Of a DNA stretch of 64,000 bases, positions 7,693 to 54,800 are shown piece after piece. The notes under the pieces are model-generated. The model did no database searches. It saw nothing but the letters and a program-made list of their open reading frames with translations, and had not been told where the DNA came from. The stretch spans positions 372,001-436,000 of the forward strand of contig NZ_CP028365.1 of NCBI RefSeq assembly GCF_003033925.1. Direction: 5' to 3'. The number at the start of each line of letters is the position of its first letter. The stretch's first letter is position 1. Source of the DNA: Tannerella serpentiformis. GTDB lineage: Bacteria > Bacteroidota > Bacteroidia > Bacteroidales > Tannerellaceae. The position numbers and the translations under genes are program-made.

Positions 7693-7779
7693 ACCTCTAT
7701 AATCAGGAGTAAGGGGGGACAATAAAAAGCTAAAAACTAAATCACAAAAATAGAGGATCCTCGATAATCATCGGTATCT

Positions 7780-9095
7780 CTACCCTATAAAAAAGTACCC
7801 ATCCGATAGCTATCGACAGCTCTATCCTATCGAAAAGTACATATCCGCTGCCCGCTGATAGTACTACCCCCTAAAAAAGTACACCACGGATGCCCATCAA
7901 CTACTCTACCCCCTAAAAAGCAACTATCACCGATCGCAAACAATTACCCTCACTTCAAAAAGTAACTATCCTCAATGCACCACGACATCCCTCTTCCCTA
8001 AAAAATACCTCACTGATCCCCATCGACAACTCTATTCCTAAAAAGCAACTATCACCGACCGTAAACAATTACCCTTACTTCAAAAAGTAACTACCCTCGA
8101 TGCTTTCCGACACTCCTCTCCCATAAAAAAGTACCCCTCCGATTCTCATCAACGACTCTACTCCTAAAAAGCAACTATCACCGATCGCAAACAATAGCCG
8201 TTACTTCAAAAAGAAACTATCCTCGATGCCTCCCGATATCCCTCCCCCCTAAAAAAATGCCTCACCGATGCCCATCAACGACTCTACTCCTAAAAATCGA
8301 CTATCACCGACTGCAAACAATAGCCGTTACTTCAAAAAGTAACTACACTCGATGCTTCCTGATACCTCCCCTCTAAAAAAGTACCTCACCGATATCTGCA
8401 GATACCCCGACCCTCTAAAAAAGTACTCTCAAAACTTTCTACAATACCTCTCCCCCCTAAAAAAGTACACCACCGATTCCCATCAACGACTCTATTCCTA
8501 AAAAGCGACTATCACCGACCGCAAACAATTACCCTTACTTCAAAAAGTAATTACCCTCGATGCATCCCCATATCCTCTCCCCTAAAAAAAACACCTCACC
8601 AATGCAAATCAGCGATCCTACTCCTAAAAAGTAACTATCACCGACCGCAAACAATAGCTTTTACTTCAAAAAGTAATTACCATCGATGCCTCCCGATAGC
8701 CCTCCCCCCTAAAAAAGTACCTCACCAATTCCCATCGATAACTTTAATCCTAAAAAGCAACTATCACCGACTGCAAACAATTGCCCTTTCTTCAAAAAGT
8801 AATTACTCTCGATGCCTCCCGATAGCCCTCCCCCCTAAAAAAGTACCCCACCAATTCCCATCAACGACTCTACTCCTAAAAAGCGACTATCACCGACCGA
8901 AAACAATTACCCTTACTTCAAAAAGTAACTATCCTCGATGCCTCCCGATAGCCCTCCCACCTAAAAAAGTACCTCACCGATGCCCATCAACGACTCTACT
9001 CTCTAAAAAGCAACTATCACCGATTACAAAAATAGCCCTTACTTCAAAAAGCAATTATCCTCGATGCCTCCCGATACCCCTACCCCCTAAAAAAA
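7780..9095. repeat. 42-bp higher-order tandem array B (about 31 units, 126-bp superunit)
   Basis: About 1.3 kb of tandem repeat with no gene. The segment AACTATCACC recurs at 7922, 8047, 8173, 8299, 8507, 8633, 8759, 8885 and 9012, so the dominant period is 126 bp. Inside each superunit three blocks of about 42 bp each begin with an AAAAAGTAC- or AAAAAGCAAC-like segment (e.g. 7793, 7835, 7877, 7918, 7960). The base unit is therefore 42 bp and the array is a three-part higher-order repeat. TTACTT-caaa-AAGTAA is the recurrent inverted repeat. One stretch near 8340-8460 has a different block order, giving the 208-bp step. Confidence 0.93.
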
Positions 9096-10214: not shown

Positions 10215-10373
10215 GACTAACTCTCTATAAAAATGGTATCTGTTTGGGGTGCGAAGATCTATCTTTTTTCTGACCTTCCAAATTTTTCCCATCAATAGCA
10301 GTCATCTTTTTGATTTTGGCCTATCGTCATTCATCGATCACGCAAACCTTCTACAGGAAGAATAATTGTAATC

Positions 10374-10750
10374 CGTCGACAGTGCTTACTTTTTGAGGGA
10401 AGCCCATTGCAAGCCGTCGACAGTACAAACTTTTTGAGGGAAGTCGATTGTAAGCCGTCGACAGCAAAAACTTTTCGGGGTAAACCAATTGTAAGCCGTC
10501 GACAGTAAAAACTTTTTGAGGGAAGCCGATTGTAAGCCGTCGACAGCAAAAACTTTTCGAGGGAAGCCGATTGTAAGTCGTCGACAGCGCAAACTTTTTG
10601 AGGGAAGCTAATTGTAAGCCGTCGACAACAAAAACTTTTTGAGGGAAGCCAATTGCAAGCCGTCGACAGTACGAACTTTTTAAGGGAAGCTGATTGTAAG
10701 CCGTCGACAGTGCAAACTTTTTGAGGGAGGCTCATTGCAAGCCGTCTATA
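10374..10750. repeat. 41-bp tandem array C (10 units)
   Basis: Ten units have CGTCGAC or a variant at 10374, 10415, 10456, 10497, 10538, 10579, 10620, 10661, 10702 and 10743, exactly 41 bp apart. Each contains the palindrome GTCGAC and then AAAACTTTTTGAGGGAAGC. The array lies in the divergent gap between the DUF6261 gene and the first GLPGLI gene, ending about 140 bp before the latter. Confidence 0.95.
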
Positions 10751-16903: not shown

Positions 16904-17490
16904 CTATTGCCTCACAGCTACAGCCCTTTCCTTTCAAGGGAAGAGCTATTTTTTCACAGCAACAGTCCTTTCGATTCAAGGGATGGACTATTTTTTCACA
17001 GCGATAGACTTTTCAATTCAAGGAAAGGAGTGTTTTTTCACAGTGACAGCCCTTTTTTTTCGGGGGAGGAGCTATTTTTTTCGGACAATCTCCCTTTCTA
17101 TTCAAGGGAAGCACTATTTTTTCATAGCGACAGTCCTTTCTCTTCAAGGAAAGAGATGATTTTTCTTGCTGATAGCCTTTTCGATTTAAGGAAAACACTA
17201 AATCCATACAGCGACAGCCCTTTCTTTTCGGGGGAAGAGCTATTTTTTTCAGACAATTCCCTTTTCGATTTAAGGGAAGCACTAAATCCACACAGCGACA
17301 GCCTTTTCTCTTCAAGGGAGGAGCTATTTTTTCACAGCGATAGCTCTTCCTTTTTGAGAGAAAAGCTATTTTTTTCGGACAATCCCCCTTTCCTTTCAAG
17401 GAGAGCACTAAATCCACATAGCGAAAGCCTTTTCTTTTCGAGGGAAGAGCTGTTTTTTCATGACAACAGTCCTCTACTCTCGAAAAGAGA
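16904..17490. repeat. 42-bp tandem array D (about 14 units)
   Basis: Units recur every 42 bp; CTATTTTTT, CACTAAATCC or an equivalent is at 16946, 16988, 17030, 17072, 17114, 17156, 17198, 17240, 17282 and 17324, continuing to about 17490. At least three unit types (CTATTTTTTCACAGC, CTATTTTTTTCGGACAA and CTAAATCCACACAGC) are interleaved, so it is a partial higher-order repeat. Each has a CCTT/AAGG inverted repeat. Because 42 is a multiple of three, an open frame of nearly 200 codons runs through it, but it encodes only a repetitive peptide and is not a gene. It fills the convergent gap between the barrel and DUF5686 genes. Confidence 0.94.
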
Positions 17491-20206: not shown

Positions 20207-20377
20207 GAGTGAGCGTAAAAACCCGACCATCCAAAAGGAGGTGGCAAATTCGTCGTGGGGAAGGCCTCCCCCCCACCGTCCCCATTCGATGGGATTGGCG
20301 CATCTGATTTCAGTACATTTCTTTGCACCCGATTTCAAACACGTTTCAAGCGCATTCCATCCATACACACCCCACGC

Positions 20378-20734
20378 ATGCATTGCACTGAAAAAGTAAG
20401 ACGACGACTGGCCTTCTGGCTGTGTATCCTCTTCATCGGATACACGGCGGCGACGTCGTTTTTCTATCATGCGCACTACGTGAACGGTCGATGGATCGTG
20501 CACTCTCACCCCTACACCCAGGCGCCCGAGACGGGCCACCACACCCACACGCAGGCGGGCTTTGCTACGCTGGCCTGCCTCACCGCAGCGCTGATGACCT
20601 CCATCGCGCCCACGCTTTACACTGAACCTCTCACGCGTCTCTCGGCTGTCATCATCAAGGCGATCTGCATTGCCCTCGTCAGCCAGGAGTTCCTCCACCT
20701 ATCCCTTCGCGGCCCGCCGGCGATGTGCCTCTAA
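20378..20734 (+). CDS. small histidine-rich membrane protein
   Basis: A 118-aa protein. The start is set at MHCTEKVRRRLAFWLCILF, where the first membrane segment begins; the in-frame extension upstream is not protein-like. There are two hydrophobic segments (about 12-28 and 65-85) and possibly a third at about 93-110. Between the first two lies a histidine cluster: FYHAHYVNG, then IVHSHPY, then HHTHTQAGF. This HxH...HSH...HTH pattern looks like a metal site and I recall similar small proteins in Bacteroidales. It lies upstream of a TonB-dependent receptor on the same strand, separated by an array. A metal-uptake or sensing role is inference. Confidence 0.65.
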   Translation: MHCTEKVRRRLAFWLCILFIGYTAATSFFYHAHYVNGRWIVHSHPYTQAPETGHHTHTQAGFATLACLTAALMTSIAPTLYTEPLTRLSAVIIKAICIALVSQEFLHLSLRGPPAMCL

Positions 20735-20922
20735 ATGGCGAATTGCTGCGTTGCGATCGATTCTCGGTCTCGGACGCCTTGCACTTCATCCATTTATGAA
20801 CACCGCCCTGTAATCCACCTGTCAATTGATCATTGTCAATGGTCATAGGGCGCCATGATTCGCCCCGACGGCCATTGTTGCGTGCTCCTGCTTCGGAAAT
20901 ACACGCTATCAGACTGATGCAG

Positions 20923-21285
20923 GCTTGCAGGGACTCGTCGAAGTCTTCGCCAGCTTCACGCAGGCTTGCAGGGCCTCGTCGAAGTCTTCGCCAGCCTCAA
21001 ACATGCTTGCATGGACTCGATTTACCGTAAATCAGCTCCAAACATGCTTGCATGGCTCCGATTTACCGTAAATCAGCTTCAAACACGCTTGCATGGCTCC
21101 GATTTACCGTAAATCAGCTTCAAACAGGCTTGCATGGCTCCGATTTACCGTAAATCAGCGTCAAGCACGCTTGCATGGACTCGATTTACCGTAAATCAGC
21201 TTCAAGCAGGCTTGCAGGGCCCCGATATACAGTATATCAGCTTCAAGCAGGCTTGCATGGCCCGATATACATTATTCCAACTGTC
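20923..21285. repeat. 41-bp tandem array E (9 units) with three alternative palindromes
   Basis: GCTTGCA, or GCTTGC at the edges, recurs at 20923, 20964, 21005, 21046, 21087, 21128, 21169, 21210 and 21251, exactly 41 bp apart. The 15 bp at unit positions 15-29 form a palindrome. In units 1-2 it is GTCGAAGTCTTCGCC, in units 3-7 GATTTACCGTAAATC, and in unit 8 GATATACAGTATATC. The flanking sequence is nearly constant. The array lies between the histidine-rich protein gene and the TonB receptor gene. Confidence 0.96.
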
Positions 21286-21327
21286 TAAAAACAAACAGAT
21301 ATCACACTAATAAACACAAGTAAGAAA

Positions 21328-23943
21328 ATGAGAATCATTTACCTCCCCCTGCTGATGCTTTGCGCATCGCTCACACAGCCGGCTTGGGCCGGCACGACTG
21401 ATCCCACGATCGGATCGGAACAAGTCAAACCCAAGACAGACGCCGTCGTCACCGGCCACGTGGTCGACGCTAAGACGGGCGAACATTTGCCCTACATCAA
21501 CGTCGTAGTCAAAGGCACCACCATCGGCGTGGCCACCGACGCCACGGGTCACTACATGCTCAAGGACCTGCCCGCGGGCGAACTGACCATCGAGGCCACC
21601 TTCATCGGCTACAAAAAGGCCGTGAAGAAGATCAAGACGAAGCCCAACACGATGCTCGAAGTCAACTTTGAGCTCGAGGAAGAGGCGCTGGCCATCGACG
21701 AGGTGGTCGTCTCGGCCACACGCAGCGAGACGATGCGCCGCGAAGCACCGTCGCTCGTGAACGTGCTTGACACGAAGCTCTTCGAGCGCACCCAATCGAC
21801 CGACATCGCCCAAGGACTGAAGTTCCAACCCGGCGTGCGCGTGGAGACCAACTGCCAGAACTGCGGCTTCAGCCAAGTGCGCATCAACGGCCTCGACGGC
21901 CCCTATTCGCAGATCCTGATCGACTCACGCCCCGTCTTCAGCGCGCTGGCGGGCGTCTACGGGCTGGAGCAGATCCCGGCCAACATGATCGAGCGCGTCG
22001 AGGTGGTGCGTGGCGGCGGATCGGCGCTGTTCGGATCGTCGGCCATCGCGGGCACGATCAACATCATCACCCGCGAACCGACAGGCAACTCCGCCTCCCT
22101 CTCGCACCAGACGCGCGGACTGGGCGGCCTGAACACGTTTGAGAACACGACGAACTTCAACGGCTCCATGGTGAACGAAAACGGTCGGCTGGGCGTCACC
22201 CTCTTCGGCCAGGCACGCCACCGCACGGGCTACGACCACGACGGCGACGGCTACACGGAGCTGCCCGTGCTCGACGGTCGCACCTTAGGCTTCCGCACCT
22301 TCCTCAAGCCGAACATCTACTCGCGCTTCACGCTGGAGTTTCACAACACCCACGAGTTCCGCCGCGGCGGTGACCTGCTCAAGGAGCAGCCCCACAACGC
22401 CCACATCGCCGAGCAGCTGGAGCACATCAACAACGTGGGCAGCCTCGGCTACCAATACTTCAGCCCCGACGGCCATCACCGCTTCAACGCCTACGGCTCG
22501 TTCATGAAGGTGCAGCGCAAGAGCTACTACGGTGGCGGCGATCGCACGGCAGACGAGATCATCAACGAGGGCAAGAAGAACGTGGAGGCTGCCAAGGATG
22601 CCTTCATCGCCGAGCTCAAAAAGAAGAACCCCGCCATCACGGACGACGAGCTAGAGGCCGAGGTGAAGAAGTCCTTCTTACCCGGCTCGCACAACGGCCT
22701 GACGAACGAGGATATGCTGGAGCTGAACAAGCGCATGTCTTCTTACGGACGCACAAACGGCCTGACCTACATGTTCGGCGCACAGTATGCCGCTGACTTT
22801 GACCGCCTGCTCTTCCTCCCCTCCACGCTCACCGCGGGCATCGAGTACAACCACGATCACTTGGACGATAAGAGCGGATACCGCGAGGCGCCCATCGATC
22901 AGCGCGTGAACACGAAGAGCGCCTTCCTGCAAAACGAATGGAAGGACGACCGCTGGAGCATCCTCGTCGGTGCCCGGCTCGACAAGCACTCGATGGTCAG
23001 CCGCGCCATCCTCAGCCCGCGCCTCAACCTGCGCTTTGCCCCCTCGAAAGATTTTACCCTGCGCGCCAGCTACAGCAAGGGATTCCGCGCCCCGCAGCTC
23101 TTTGACGAGGACTTGCACGTGGACAATGCTGGTGGCGACCTCATCGTCTCTCGCAACGCCCCGGGCCTCCGGGAGGAAACCTCGCACAGCTTCAGCGCCT
23201 CCATCGACTGGTACCACCGCTTCGGCGTTTGGCAGCTCAACCTGCTGGCCGAAGGCTTCTACACGCAGCTCGTGGACGCCTTTGGGTTTACGCAGAAGGA
23301 CACCGTCATCGGTGGCATCTCGCAGATCCTCAAGACGCGCGAAAACTCCGACGGCGCCAAGGTGTACGGCCTCAACTTCGAGGGTAAAATTGCCTACCTC
23401 AACACCTGGCAGCTGCAAGGTGGACTCACCGCGCAACGTAGCCTTTGGAACACCGAGCGACAGTGGAACGAGGACGACGCCTACAAGACGCGCCGCATCT
23501 ACCGCACCCCCGATCTCTACGCCTACTTCATCGGCACGCTCAACATCACCCGCGCCCTGAGCTTCTCCCTGACGGGTAACTATACGGGCAACATGCTCAC
23601 CGGCCACGAGATCCCGACCGAGGACGACGGTTCGCTCACACAGTTCAACGGCCGTCCCGCCGCCACCATCCACCCCGACCGCATGCAGCATGGCGAAGGT
23701 CAGACGGACAAGACCTACGGCCCGCGCACATTCCGGACGCCGGCCTTCTTCGAGATGGGCGCCCGCGTGGCCTACAACATCCCGCTCTACAAGACCTACA
23801 CACTGCAGCTCCACGCCGGTGTGCAGAACATGTTCAACGCCTTCCAAGACGACTTCGACCGCGGTCCCTCGCGCGACTCGGCCTACATCTACGGCCCCGG
23901 CTCGCCCCGCTGCTGGTACGCCGGCATGAAGCTCACGCTGTAA
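21328..23943 (+). CDS. TonB-dependent outer-membrane receptor
   Basis: An 871-aa receptor. Signal peptide MRIIYLPLLMLCASLTQPAWA, then a CarboxypepD_reg-like domain (about 45-125: TGHVVDAKTGEHLPYINVVV), then a typical plug (about 130-240) with VVVSATRSE, the cysteine pair in ETNCQNCGFSQVRINGL, YSQILIDSRPVFS and VEVVRGGGSALFGSSAIAGTI. The barrel follows and ends CWYAGMKLTL. A charged helical insertion lies near 405-460. The CxxC in the plug, and the histidine-rich membrane protein upstream, suggest a metal or metal-complex substrate, but this is inference. A strong terminator follows at 23973. Confidence 0.92.
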   Translation: MRIIYLPLLMLCASLTQPAWAGTTDPTIGSEQVKPKTDAVVTGHVVDAKTGEHLPYINVVVKGTTIGVATDATGHYMLKDLPAGELTIEATFIGYKKAVKKIKTKPNTMLEVNFELEEEALAIDEVVVSATRSETMRREAPSLVNVLDTKLFERTQSTDIAQGLKFQPGVRVETNCQNCGFSQVRINGLDGPYSQILIDSRPVFSALAGVYGLEQIPANMIERVEVVRGGGSALFGSSAIAGTINIITREPTGNSASLSHQTRGLGGLNTFENTTNFNGSMVNENGRLGVTLFGQARHRTGYDHDGDGYTELPVLDGRTLGFRTFLKPNIYSRFTLEFHNTHEFRRGGDLLKEQPHNAHIAEQLEHINNVGSLGYQYFSPDGHHRFNAYGSFMKVQRKSYYGGGDRTADEIINEGKKNVEAAKDAFIAELKKKNPAITDDELEAEVKKSFLPGSHNGLTNEDMLELNKRMSSYGRTNGLTYMFGAQYAADFDRLLFLPSTLTAGIEYNHDHLDDKSGYREAPIDQRVNTKSAFLQNEWKDDRWSILVGARLDKHSMVSRAILSPRLNLRFAPSKDFTLRASYSKGFRAPQLFDEDLHVDNAGGDLIVSRNAPGLREETSHSFSASIDWYHRFGVWQLNLLAEGFYTQLVDAFGFTQKDTVIGGISQILKTRENSDGAKVYGLNFEGKIAYLNTWQLQGGLTAQRSLWNTERQWNEDDAYKTRRIYRTPDLYAYFIGTLNITRALSFSLTGNYTGNMLTGHEIPTEDDGSLTQFNGRPAATIHPDRMQHGEGQTDKTYGPRTFRTPAFFEMGARVAYNIPLYKTYTLQLHAGVQNMFNAFQDDFDRGPSRDSAYIYGPGSPRCWYAGMKLTL

Positions 23944-26525: not shown

Positions 26526-26538
26526 GAGTCGTGGATCC

Positions 26539-26935
26539 GTTTCTGATTCGCTATTCCTGACTGCAAACGATCATCAATCAGTTTCTGATTCACTATCCCT
26601 GACCGCAAAAGGTCATCAATCAGTTTCTGATTCACTATCCCTGACCGCAAAAGGTCATCAATCAGTTTCTGATTCACTATCCCTGACTGCAAAAGGTCAT
26701 CAATCAGTTTCTGATTCGCTATCCCTGACTGCAAAAGGGCCTCAATCAGTTTCTGATTCGCTACCCCTGACCGCAAAAGGTCATCAATCAGATTCTGATT
26801 GGGGGCTATCACATGAAAAGGATAGGCAATCAGTTTCTGATTGGGAGTCATCACATGAAAAGGATAGGGAATCAGATTCTGATTGGGGGCTATCACACGA
26901 AAGGGATAAGGAATCAGAAACGGATTCGAAGGCCC
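26539..26935. repeat. 42-bp tandem array F (10 units)
   Basis: The palindrome AATCAGtttCTGATT, or its AATCAGattCTGATT variant, recurs with a 42-bp step at 26539, 26581, 26623, 26665, 26707, 26749, 26791, 26833, 26875 and, more weakly, 26917. The first seven units continue with CACTATCCCTGACCGCAAAAGGTC; the last ones switch to GGGGGCTATCACATGAAAAGG while keeping the palindrome. The array ends about 60 bp upstream of dnaB. As 42 is a multiple of three, it is open in frame with dnaB. Confidence 0.95.
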
Positions 26936-31022: not shown

Positions 31023-31375
31023 TGCAACAATCTTGCAAATCGAAAAATGAAGTTTTGGTGCTTGCAGAAATGCTGCAAATGCCCCGAAAAACTTTTTGGC
31101 CTCTGCAGGAATGCTGCAAACGCCGCGAAGAACTTTTTGGCGTTTGCAGGGACGCTGCAAGTGCCTCGAAAAACCTTTTGGCGTTTGCAGGAATGCTGCA
31201 AACGCCGCGAAGAACTTTTTGGCGTTTGCAGGAACGCTGCAAGTGCCTCGAAAAACTTTTCGGCGTTTGCAGGAACGCTGCAAGTGCTTCGAAAAACTTT
31301 TTGGAGTTTGCAGGGACGCTGCAAGTGCCGCGAAAAACTTTTTGGGCTTTGCAGAATTGTTGCAAGCATTTCCAA
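31023..31375. repeat. 41-bp tandem array G (9 units)
   Basis: TGCAG recurs at 31063, 31104, 31145, 31186, 31227, 31268, 31309 and 31350, exactly 41 bp apart, with a degenerate first unit at 31023. Each unit has the inverted repeat TTGCAG-gaacg-CTGCAA, then AAAAACTTTTTGGCG. The unit is related to array A, 29 kb away. It lies between the flavodiiron gene start and the lgt stop. Confidence 0.95.
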
Positions 31376-35324: not shown

Positions 35325-35550
35325 TGGTAGAGGGTAGAGGGTAGAGGGTAGAGGGTAGAGGGTAGAGGGTAGAGAGTAGAGGGTAGAGAGTAGAGGGTGG
35401 AGAGTAGAGGGTAGAGAGTAGAGGGTAGAGAGTAGAGGGTAGAGAGTAGAGGGTAGAGAGTAGAGGGTAGAGAGTAGAGGGTAGAGAGTAGAGGGTAGAG
35501 AGTAGAGGGTAGAGGATGAACATGTACCCGGCTCTACCCTCTACCCTCTA
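35325..35550. repeat. 7/14-bp tandem array H and its inverted end
   Basis: About 190 bp of GTAGAGG and GTAGAGA heptamers; from about 35370 they alternate to give a 14-bp unit. At 35535-35550 the inverted form CTCTACCCTCTACCCTCTA follows, so the end of the array can fold back on itself as a hairpin, possibly the porV terminator. It abuts the ispF start codon by 3-10 bp and is the only array here without 41/42-bp units, although 14 is a third of 42. Confidence 0.93.
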
Positions 35551-36983: not shown

Positions 36984-37290
36984 TTGTCGTGCAATCCGGA
37001 GCGAAACAGTTTTGTATCGGACCAGATTGCATGCAATATAGAGTAATACAATTTTGATTCGAATTATATTGCATGCAATTCTAAGCGAAATAGTTTTGTA
37101 TCGGATCGGATTGCATACAATCCAGAGTAATACAATTCTGATTCGGATCAGATTGCATGCAATCTAGAGCGAATCAGTTTTGATTCGGATCAGATTGCGT
37201 GCAATCCAGAGCGAAACAATTTTGTATCGGATCGGATTGCATGCTATCTGATATAAAACAAACGTGTATCAAATCGTATTTTGAGCCATA
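36984..37290. repeat. 42-bp tandem array I (7 units)
   Basis: The palindrome GATTGCATGCAATC, or a one-base variant, recurs every 42 bp: 36984 (partial), 37026, 37068, 37110, 37152, 37194 and 37236. The rest of the unit is AGAGCGAATCAGTTTTGATTCGG or similar. It lies between the porV start and the stop of the GNAT gene. The remaining 240 bp upstream of porV show no gene. Confidence 0.94.
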
Positions 37291-40524: not shown

Positions 40525-40800
40525 TGCGCGGGCACGTCGCTGTGTATTTCGGGGCCATGCAAAGCTGCGACAGCCCGTCGCTGTGTGTTTTGAGCTGTTG
40601 CAAAGCTGCGACAGCCCATCGCTGTGTGTTTTGGGCGTTGCAAAAGCTGCGACAGCCCGTCGCTGTGTATTTTGAGCGTTGCAAATTTTGCGACAGCCCG
40701 TCGCTGTGTATTTCGAGCGTTGCAAAATCTACGACAGCCCGTCGCTGTGTATTTCGGGCGTTGCAAAATCTGCGACAGCCCGTCGCTGTGCGTTTTGAAG
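40525..40800. repeat. 41-bp tandem array J (7 units)
   Basis: GCGACAG recurs at 40567, 40608, 40649, 40690, 40731 and 40772, exactly 41 bp apart, with a degenerate first unit at about 40526. Each has GCGACagcccGTCGC, then TGTGTATTTTGAGCGTTGC. It occupies the shared regulatory gap of the divergent kbl and tdh genes but ends before the promoters of both. Confidence 0.95.
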
Positions 40801-54201: not shown

Positions 54202-54319
54202 GATAGATATTCGTCCTACACAACCGGCGTCCGGAGCAAGGGTCAGGGGTCAAATTCCCCTGATTACGGGTGCGCGCAACGGCTTACCCGGCATCGCCAT
54301 TTCCGTTGTCCTACAATCA

Positions 54320-54800
54320 CCCTGCGCCGCGCCCGAAGCACCTCTTTTTGCCCAATAGACGCCCTGCGTGGCCCCTAATGCGCCTCATTTTACCCGATAG
54401 ACACCCTGCGCGGCGCCCGAAGCGAGTCATTTTGCCCCACTACCACCCCATCAGGCCCTAAAAAGAGCCATATATTCCATGCTTTTACATTAAAAGTGCG
54501 AGATATACAGTGCAAGTAATATGCTTTTATATTGAAAGGATAAGATATTCGACACGCATTGAATGCTCTCATATTAAAAGCCTATTATATACGATCTATA
54601 TTTAATGCTTTTACACTGAAAGGATACAATATACATGATATATCTAATCCTTTTAATCTGAAAGTATTATATATACGGTGAAAGTAGATATCTTTCAAAT
54701 TAATACGCTCCGACTTGCAGTATATATTCTATCCTATCAGATTAAAAGCATAAAATATACATGTGATATTTTATCCTATCACATTAAAAGCGTCTGATAT
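54320..54800. repeat. 42-bp composite tandem array L (12 units, GC-rich then AT-rich)
   Basis: Four GC-rich units (CCCTGCG or a relic at 54320, 54362, 54404 and about 54446) run straight into AT-rich units with CTTTTACATTAAAAG-like palindromes at 54481, 54523, 54565, 54607, 54649, 54691, 54733 and 54775. The 42-bp step holds inside each part and the change happens inside one array. The AT-rich part is related to array K. The 300 bp that follow (54800-55110) contain no gene that I can support. Confidence 0.93.

Follow-up and report, generated by a model that had tools for sequence, protein, structure and literature searches.

An Array of 41-bp Units with Changing Dyads in Tannerella serpentiformis, Possibly One of Many Intergenic DNA Lattices

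Introduction

The parS/sopC centromere of the F plasmid consists of twelve 43-bp tandem repeats, which contain 16-bp inverted repeats and are bound by ParB/SopB (PMC6238139). In Porphyromonas gingivalis, the tandem repeats found inside BrickBuilt MITEs are 23 nt long and carry dyads (PMC4596501). We analyzed here array E, located in a window of Tannerella serpentiformis DNA (i.e., the whole stretch analyzed, 64,000 nucleotides, contig positions 372001–436000), together with the arrays of comparable geometry present in the same genome. These two systems are the closest to our arrays in their anatomy, and neither fits, since sopC has a single conserved site and BrickBuilt elements share their ends. 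Like sopC, the arrays are made of tandem units of approximately four helical turns (period 40–43), each with a 15–17-bp dyad, in many copies. Unlike sopC, a single locus that has a single dyad sequence and whose protein is known, they are chromosomal, number approximately 135 per 850 kb, and carry unrelated dyads, often two per unit. A centromere of the ParB–parS/sopC type was rejected: there is no single conserved binding sequence, the dyads differing among 78 families and even within array E. Like BrickBuilt, the arrays are found in Bacteroidales, are intergenic, and show internal tandem repeats with dyad symmetry. However, the BrickBuilt repeats correspond to about two helical turns, against a period of 41–42 here, and BrickBuilt elements have a common leader, tail, and family sequence, whereas our arrays share neither ends nor between-family sequence.

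The arrays also resemble REP/BIME elements with RAYT, which are short extragenic palindromes present in many copies (REP families: PMC3733652). Unlike the arrays described here (78 families in our sample), REPs form few sequence families. They are tied to a transposase and are not known to build strict 41-bp tandem lattices. In the open-access literature searched (Tannerella repeats, Bacteroidales arrays, dyads), of which coverage is incomplete, we found no description of this class of arrays, nor are they mentioned in the passages found on T. forsythia, BU063, and BU045.

Array E and Its Dyad Versions

Read directly, array E is made of eight full 41-bp units followed by a partial ninth, from 20919 to about 21280 of the window, and the 41-bp register is strict throughout; Tandem Repeats Finder reported it as two overlapping pieces. 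The features of the locus are as follows (window positions; dyads carry no strand).

20919–21280, plus strand: array E, intergenic, with a degenerate ninth unit (read directly)
20919 and 20960: starts of units 1 and 2, with GTCGAAGTCTTCGCC
21001, 21042, 21083, 21124, and 21165: starts of units 3 to 7, with GATTTACCGTAAATC
21206: start of unit 8, with GATATACAGTATATC
21247: start of the partial degenerate unit 9, with GATATACATTATTCC
20937–20951: dyad version 1, GTCGAAGTCTTCGCC, imperfect, unit 1
20978–20992: dyad version 1, GTCGAAGTCTTCGCC, unit 2
21019–21033: dyad version 2, GATTTACCGTAAATC, 7-1-7, unit 3
21060–21074: dyad version 2, GATTTACCGTAAATC, unit 4
21101–21115: dyad version 2, GATTTACCGTAAATC, unit 5
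21142–21156: dyad version 2, GATTTACCGTAAATC, unit 6
21183–21197: dyad version 2, GATTTACCGTAAATC, unit 7
21224–21238: dyad version 3, GATATACAGTATATC, 7-1-7, unit 8
21264–21278: degenerate dyad GATATACATTATTCC, edge unit
21162–21173: candidate second dyad CAAGC-AC-GCTTG, weak, about two turns off the main dyad
21203–21214 and 21244–21255: candidate second dyad CAAGC-AG-GCTTG
20255–20734, plus strand: upstream gene, small His-rich protein of no known family
21328–23943, plus strand: downstream gene, TonB-dependent receptor with a carboxypeptidase-regulatory-like domain, starting about 50 bp past the array

In each 41-bp unit, the dyad occupies positions 19–33, except in unit 9, where it comes one base earlier. 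Direct reading confirmed that three dyad versions coexist in this one array (units 1–2, 3–7, and 8), as the first-pass annotation had reported, while parts of its description had to be narrowed. It presented all versions as inverted repeats: pairing is complete (7-1-7) in versions 2 and 3, but GTCGAAGTCTTCGCC is imperfect, with 6 of its 7 positions paired and a T.C at pair 2/14. Its many coordinated changes hold for the passage from unit 2 to unit 3 only, where four pairs are fully exchanged; between versions 2 and 3 (GATTTAC-C-GTAAATC and GATATAC-A-GTATATC), the only differences are base pair 4/12 and the center base. The flanks are mostly, but not strictly, constant (variants ACATGC/GCAGGC and GGACTC/GGCTCC/GGCCCC). 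A CRISPR array was rejected, as array E repeats its whole 41-bp unit and unique spacers are absent.

In relatives, a homologue of the His-rich protein adjoins the same TonB receptor. This gene pair was recovered in four of them (G010, G004, G005, and G019), and the 41-bp array is absent from the loci fetched. Since the pair is kept without it, array E has been added to a gene order that is itself conserved, and the receptor gene of the relatives does without the array. As a separate observation, the His-rich and receptor genes (20255–23943; loci L010–L013) are perhaps a metal-uptake pair.

The Array E Family in the Genome

Using BLAST of array E against its own genome, we identified four main family loci (392910, 879834, 2011438, and 2023355) and weaker relatives, while array E DNA has no match among 40 other genomes of the genus. 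A close strain being absent, covariation was examined inside this genome. Pattern searches and a local survey showed that one flank, GCAGGYTTGCATGGCCTC and its variants, carries GAAATACATTATTTC, GAAATACACTATTTC, GAAATACAGTATTTC, GATATACAGTATATC, GATATACAGTAAATC, GATTTACCGTAAATC, and GTCGAAGTCTTCGCC, i.e., a graded series in which most neighbors are one base pair or central bases apart. Among these dyads, the hybrid GATATACAGTAAATC, whose arms are mismatched at one pair, is found in 5 units at two loci (2 of 9 dyads at 2011436 and all 3 GATW-type dyads at 2023355). In the genome pattern searches, GATTTATCGTAAATC has a single occurrence.

Because the hybrid survives with its mismatched pair, the passage from version 2 to version 3 is a single compensatory step, of which the intermediate is still present. 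As for version 1, a third genomic copy of GTCGAAGTCTTCGCC lies in an E-family array, at G000:C1:2023485, and the units bearing this version in array E and in array 2023355 are 92% identical over 52 bases. Version 1 is thus ready-made in the latter array, which points to unit exchange between arrays. From these sequences, the "swap" of array E is largely a stepwise compensatory change, together with one unit type common to another array.

In the E superfamily, the covariation of the dyad reaches 0.347, against 0.079 ± 0.019 in shuffles (0/500) and at most 0.127 when the dyad position is slid, in 37 distinct windows that were gathered by a motif which itself fixes part of the arms; since these windows are kin, the score is no probability and the independent events are few. 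In the same 37 windows, pair 29/39 is U-A in 18, A-U in 16, and C-G in 3, and is never unpaired.

Array families present at several loci, in a genome with one Y1-type transposase gene, could evoke mobile repeats of the MITE or REP type, which are non-autonomous and would owe their dispersal to a transposase. However, the similarity between the E-family copies is confined to the units and stops at the array edge: the borders of the four loci have neither a leader nor a tail in common, and no terminal repeat, inverted or not, and a MITE of the BrickBuilt type was rejected. The transposase locus is the following.

G000:C1:1380004–1380351 (locus L161): sole Y1-type transposase gene detected in this genome, with REP-like GGGTTTCGCCC palindromes at its flanks

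These palindromes belong to a different family from the dyads of the arrays, and the REP/RAYT association, in which the Y1 transposase is flanked by the same palindromes, was rejected as well. Dispersal by a transposase is therefore, in our opinion, very improbable.

Two other observations concern the family. The minus-strand reading of window array 40535 is a distant relative of it. In arrays G000:C1:1016202 and 2439088, the dyad GAAATACACTATTTC is constant and the flank alternates (e.g., GCAGACTTGCATGGCCCC and GCAGGTTTTGCAACGCTC), the reverse of array E.

A Genome-Wide Class of Arrays

The genome is a single contig of 3,013,500 bp, of which we sampled 850 kb (28%), in stretches partly picked around array hits. 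The G+C content of the sample is 56.6%; for BU063, a value of 55–56% has been published, in a paper that also mentions that the genome of a cultivated strain has been deposited (PMC5989130). In one scan, Tannerella MAGs were among the nearest relatives bearing a name. We detected 189 regions whose period is close to 21, 42, or a multiple of these, and in 135 of them the consensus is 40–43 bp. Extrapolation gives approximately 480 arrays per genome, a value that may be somewhat high because of the way the stretches were picked. Under a loose definition (shared-9-mer rule), the 135 arrays sort into 78 families, and their dyads show no obvious common motif. They have a median of 7 units and cover 46 kb in total. 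They thereby account for about 5–7% of the bases sampled, and for much of the non-coding DNA among these. Nearly all of the 135 are intergenic and only 4 are mainly coding, according to simple gene calls (hexamer-scored ORFs, 568 genes). The periods are quantised at 40–43, plus 21–22 and the multiples 82–86 and 123–126, with almost none at three turns. The window itself carries further intergenic arrays of this class.

2050–2230, 10365–10746, 31053–31354, and 40535–40790: period 41
26535–26918, 36990–37249, and 54318–54676: period 42

Their units are mostly unrelated and have their own dyads (e.g., TTGCAGAACTTCTGCAA and AATCAGTTTCTGATT). Two long arrays (window 7762–9094 and 16912–17460) show higher-order periods of 84, 126, 168, and 252 bp, which are multiples of 42. 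At 35326–35514, 13.5 copies of the 14-bp GGTAGAGAGTAGAG, with 98% identity, overlap the end of an ORF and are probably a very recent expansion.

Outside this genome, periods of 40–44 are rare (12 rows in 1.47 Mb of other loci, mostly from Bacteroidales). In the same 1.47 Mb, periods of 21–22 show a marked excess, with dyads scoring at least 4 in 41%, against 18% of shuffles. Five other genomes of the genus were sampled, over 17 to 65 kb each, and arrays of 41–42 bp are present in 2 of them. The 21–22-bp dyad arrays are seen in several Bacteroidales genera (e.g., L071, L084, L093, L114, and L127), and are perhaps the simple form of the 41–42-bp arrays.

The number of families bears on the proposal, also made in the first-pass annotation, that the different dyads are specific for different dimeric proteins. 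Each array would then be a multi-site operator serving its own dimeric transcription factor, and a dyad swap would be a regulator switch. The 15–17-bp dyads do resemble operators, and array E lies about 50 bp before the ATG of the TonB receptor. On the other hand, with 78 families in the 28% of the genome sampled, the regulators required would run to dozens, which is implausibly many; E-type arrays are found at several loci whose adjoining genes are unrelated; intermediates and mixed dyads stand together within one array; and the relatives keep the gene pair without the array. We hence consider this proposal improbable.

Dyad Symmetry and Helical Phasing of the Units

A dyad score of at least 5 is reached by 53% of the units, against 8.6% of shuffles, and a consensus score of at least 6 by 33% of the real arrays, against 2.4% of shuffled units, so these dyads are not due to chance. 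Around the best dyad, the pair-match profile is high up to approximately 8 bp, at background from 9 to 12 bp, and high again from 13 to 19 bp. This second rise is a second dyad, located half a period away (20–21 bp, i.e., two helical turns). In 37 family representatives (one per family, with a clear first dyad required), 130 of 275 pairs match in the half-period zone, against 70.2 ± 7.1 in flank shuffles (z 8.4). Matching in the linker that separates the two dyads is near background (0.30 against 0.26). The second dyad has at least 4 pairs in about half of these representatives and 0–3 in 18 of the 37. In a periodic array, symmetry about a first axis forces any residual symmetry to lie half a period further, so the exact half-period is no independent evidence; the evidence for the second dyad is only the separate symmetric island beyond unsymmetric linkers. 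In the E family, 63.8% of the cells of the second dyad are paired, with little covariation. The fourth harmonic of the unit (k=4), which is the helical one, stands out in A/T, purine, and A-T skew (z about 5–6). Harmonic 6 in A/T is raised as well.

What Is Kept in the Dyads

Within arrays, the variability is 0.051 for the arms, 0.102 for the flanks, and 0.158 for the dyad centers, and the arms are less variable than the flanks in 57 of 72 arrays. In these 72 arrays, 31 of the 39 double changes preserve Watson–Crick pairing, against 18.5 ± 3.6 when the arms are dealt anew among the units. With arms half as variable as flanks and double changes that mostly pair, the central idea of the first-pass annotation, namely that dyad symmetry outlasts sequence change, is borne out. 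Its suggestion of a copying mechanism that enforces pairing is not: single changes are far more numerous than double ones in dyad pairs (370 against 39) and the hybrid GATATACAGTAAATC has been propagated in tandem, which argues against any strict mechanism of this kind. Likewise, the two arms had been expected not to vary independently, and within this genome they do.

The same annotation evoked an RNA hairpin. Transcribed arrays could act as terminators, stabilizers, or small RNAs; the dyads pair, and the unit consensus folds slightly more stably than shuffles (mean z −0.97). This reading is largely contradicted. Among single changes in arrays between co-directional genes, G.U does not prevail over A.C (60 against 70), and the array E units fold at −3.7 to −5.1 kcal/mol, with z from 0.47 to −1.97 (DNA parameters), 3 of 4 being no better than shuffles. 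RNA structure is thus not what is kept. Moreover, array orientation relative to genes shows no bias, and a search of the locus in Rfam gave no match. Lacking G.U-tolerant covariation, a stable fold, and an Rfam match, a structured RNA element was rejected, and we regard RNA hairpins as a highly unlikely explanation. The arrays use convergent, tandem, and divergent contexts according to the frequency of long gaps of each kind, as expected for an element acting at the DNA level and not at the transcript level.

The results rather favor something that keeps the symmetry and spacing of the DNA, and not its sequence. This upkeep may come from selection or from mutational homogenization, both being compatible with the data. 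In its neutral form, the latter makes each array a minisatellite without selection or function, expanded by slippage or unequal exchange and homogenized by template switching of the DNA polymerase between the short inverted arms. Template switching is known to homogenize the arms of inverted repeats and to yield compensatory changes (PMC8604942, PMC8794818), and would explain the paired arm changes. The arrays are also lineage-specific, they occupy long gaps, empty sites exist for them, and their edge units are slightly more divergent than the inner ones (63 of 98 arrays). Of 36 distinct changes of the central base, 16 replace it by its complement, against 92 of 460 (20%) in flanks (p = 0.0014); such flips fit a one-base spacer inversion, and are equally expected for a two-fold-symmetric reader, to which they are neutral. 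However, exact spacer inversion, the mark of intermolecular template switching, was found in 0 of 99 changed loops of at least 2 bases, although arm homogenization alone would lack this mark anyway. The neutral process also leaves unaccounted for the unit length near four helical turns over unrelated sequences, the two discrete dyads with unsymmetric linkers, and the 10-bp phasing, and mismatched hybrids have been propagated. We judge it somewhat unlikely, while still the main competitor of the reading that we prefer.

A Possible DNA Lattice

Our preferred reading, to which we give a chance a little short of even, is that array E is one of the genome-wide intergenic DNA lattices on which a putative dimeric, shape-reading protein docks. 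The lattice unit (40–43 bp) comprises one strong dyad of approximately 15–17 bp and, in many families, a weaker one. Its symmetry axes recur at intervals of ~20.5 bp, or two helical turns, and thus look to the same side of the duplex. A homodimer, either a DNA-binding or a nucleoid-type protein, could dock at successive dyads and spread in a cooperative manner; it would recognize symmetry and the helical phasing of composition (shape) more than the exact bases. Compensatory steps could then alter the letters of the dyads under a constant geometry. Unequal exchange may spread units within an array, and ectopic exchange from one array to another, and we propose that one flank carries several dyads because of these exchanges. 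Such a lattice could affect chromosome structure or neighboring promoters. Against this reading, the second dyad of array E itself is weak and misses the exact half period by 2 bp, the candidate centers lying 18.5 and 22.5 bp from those of the main dyads.

In a broader and rather unlikely version, the ~480 chromosomal arrays extrapolated for the genome would form a sequence-independent docking lattice, with two-fold axes two helical turns apart, for a putative spreading or bridging protein of Bacteroidales. The 21–22-bp arrays of other Bacteroidales would be the simple form of this lattice and the 41–42-bp arrays an alternating form, expanded here. If it is symmetry that is kept, and not sequence, the arrays amount to a natural experiment, since dozens of unrelated sequences then spell a single geometry. 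They could reveal how a protein reads the shape of DNA, or to what extent template switching on its own can shape a genome.
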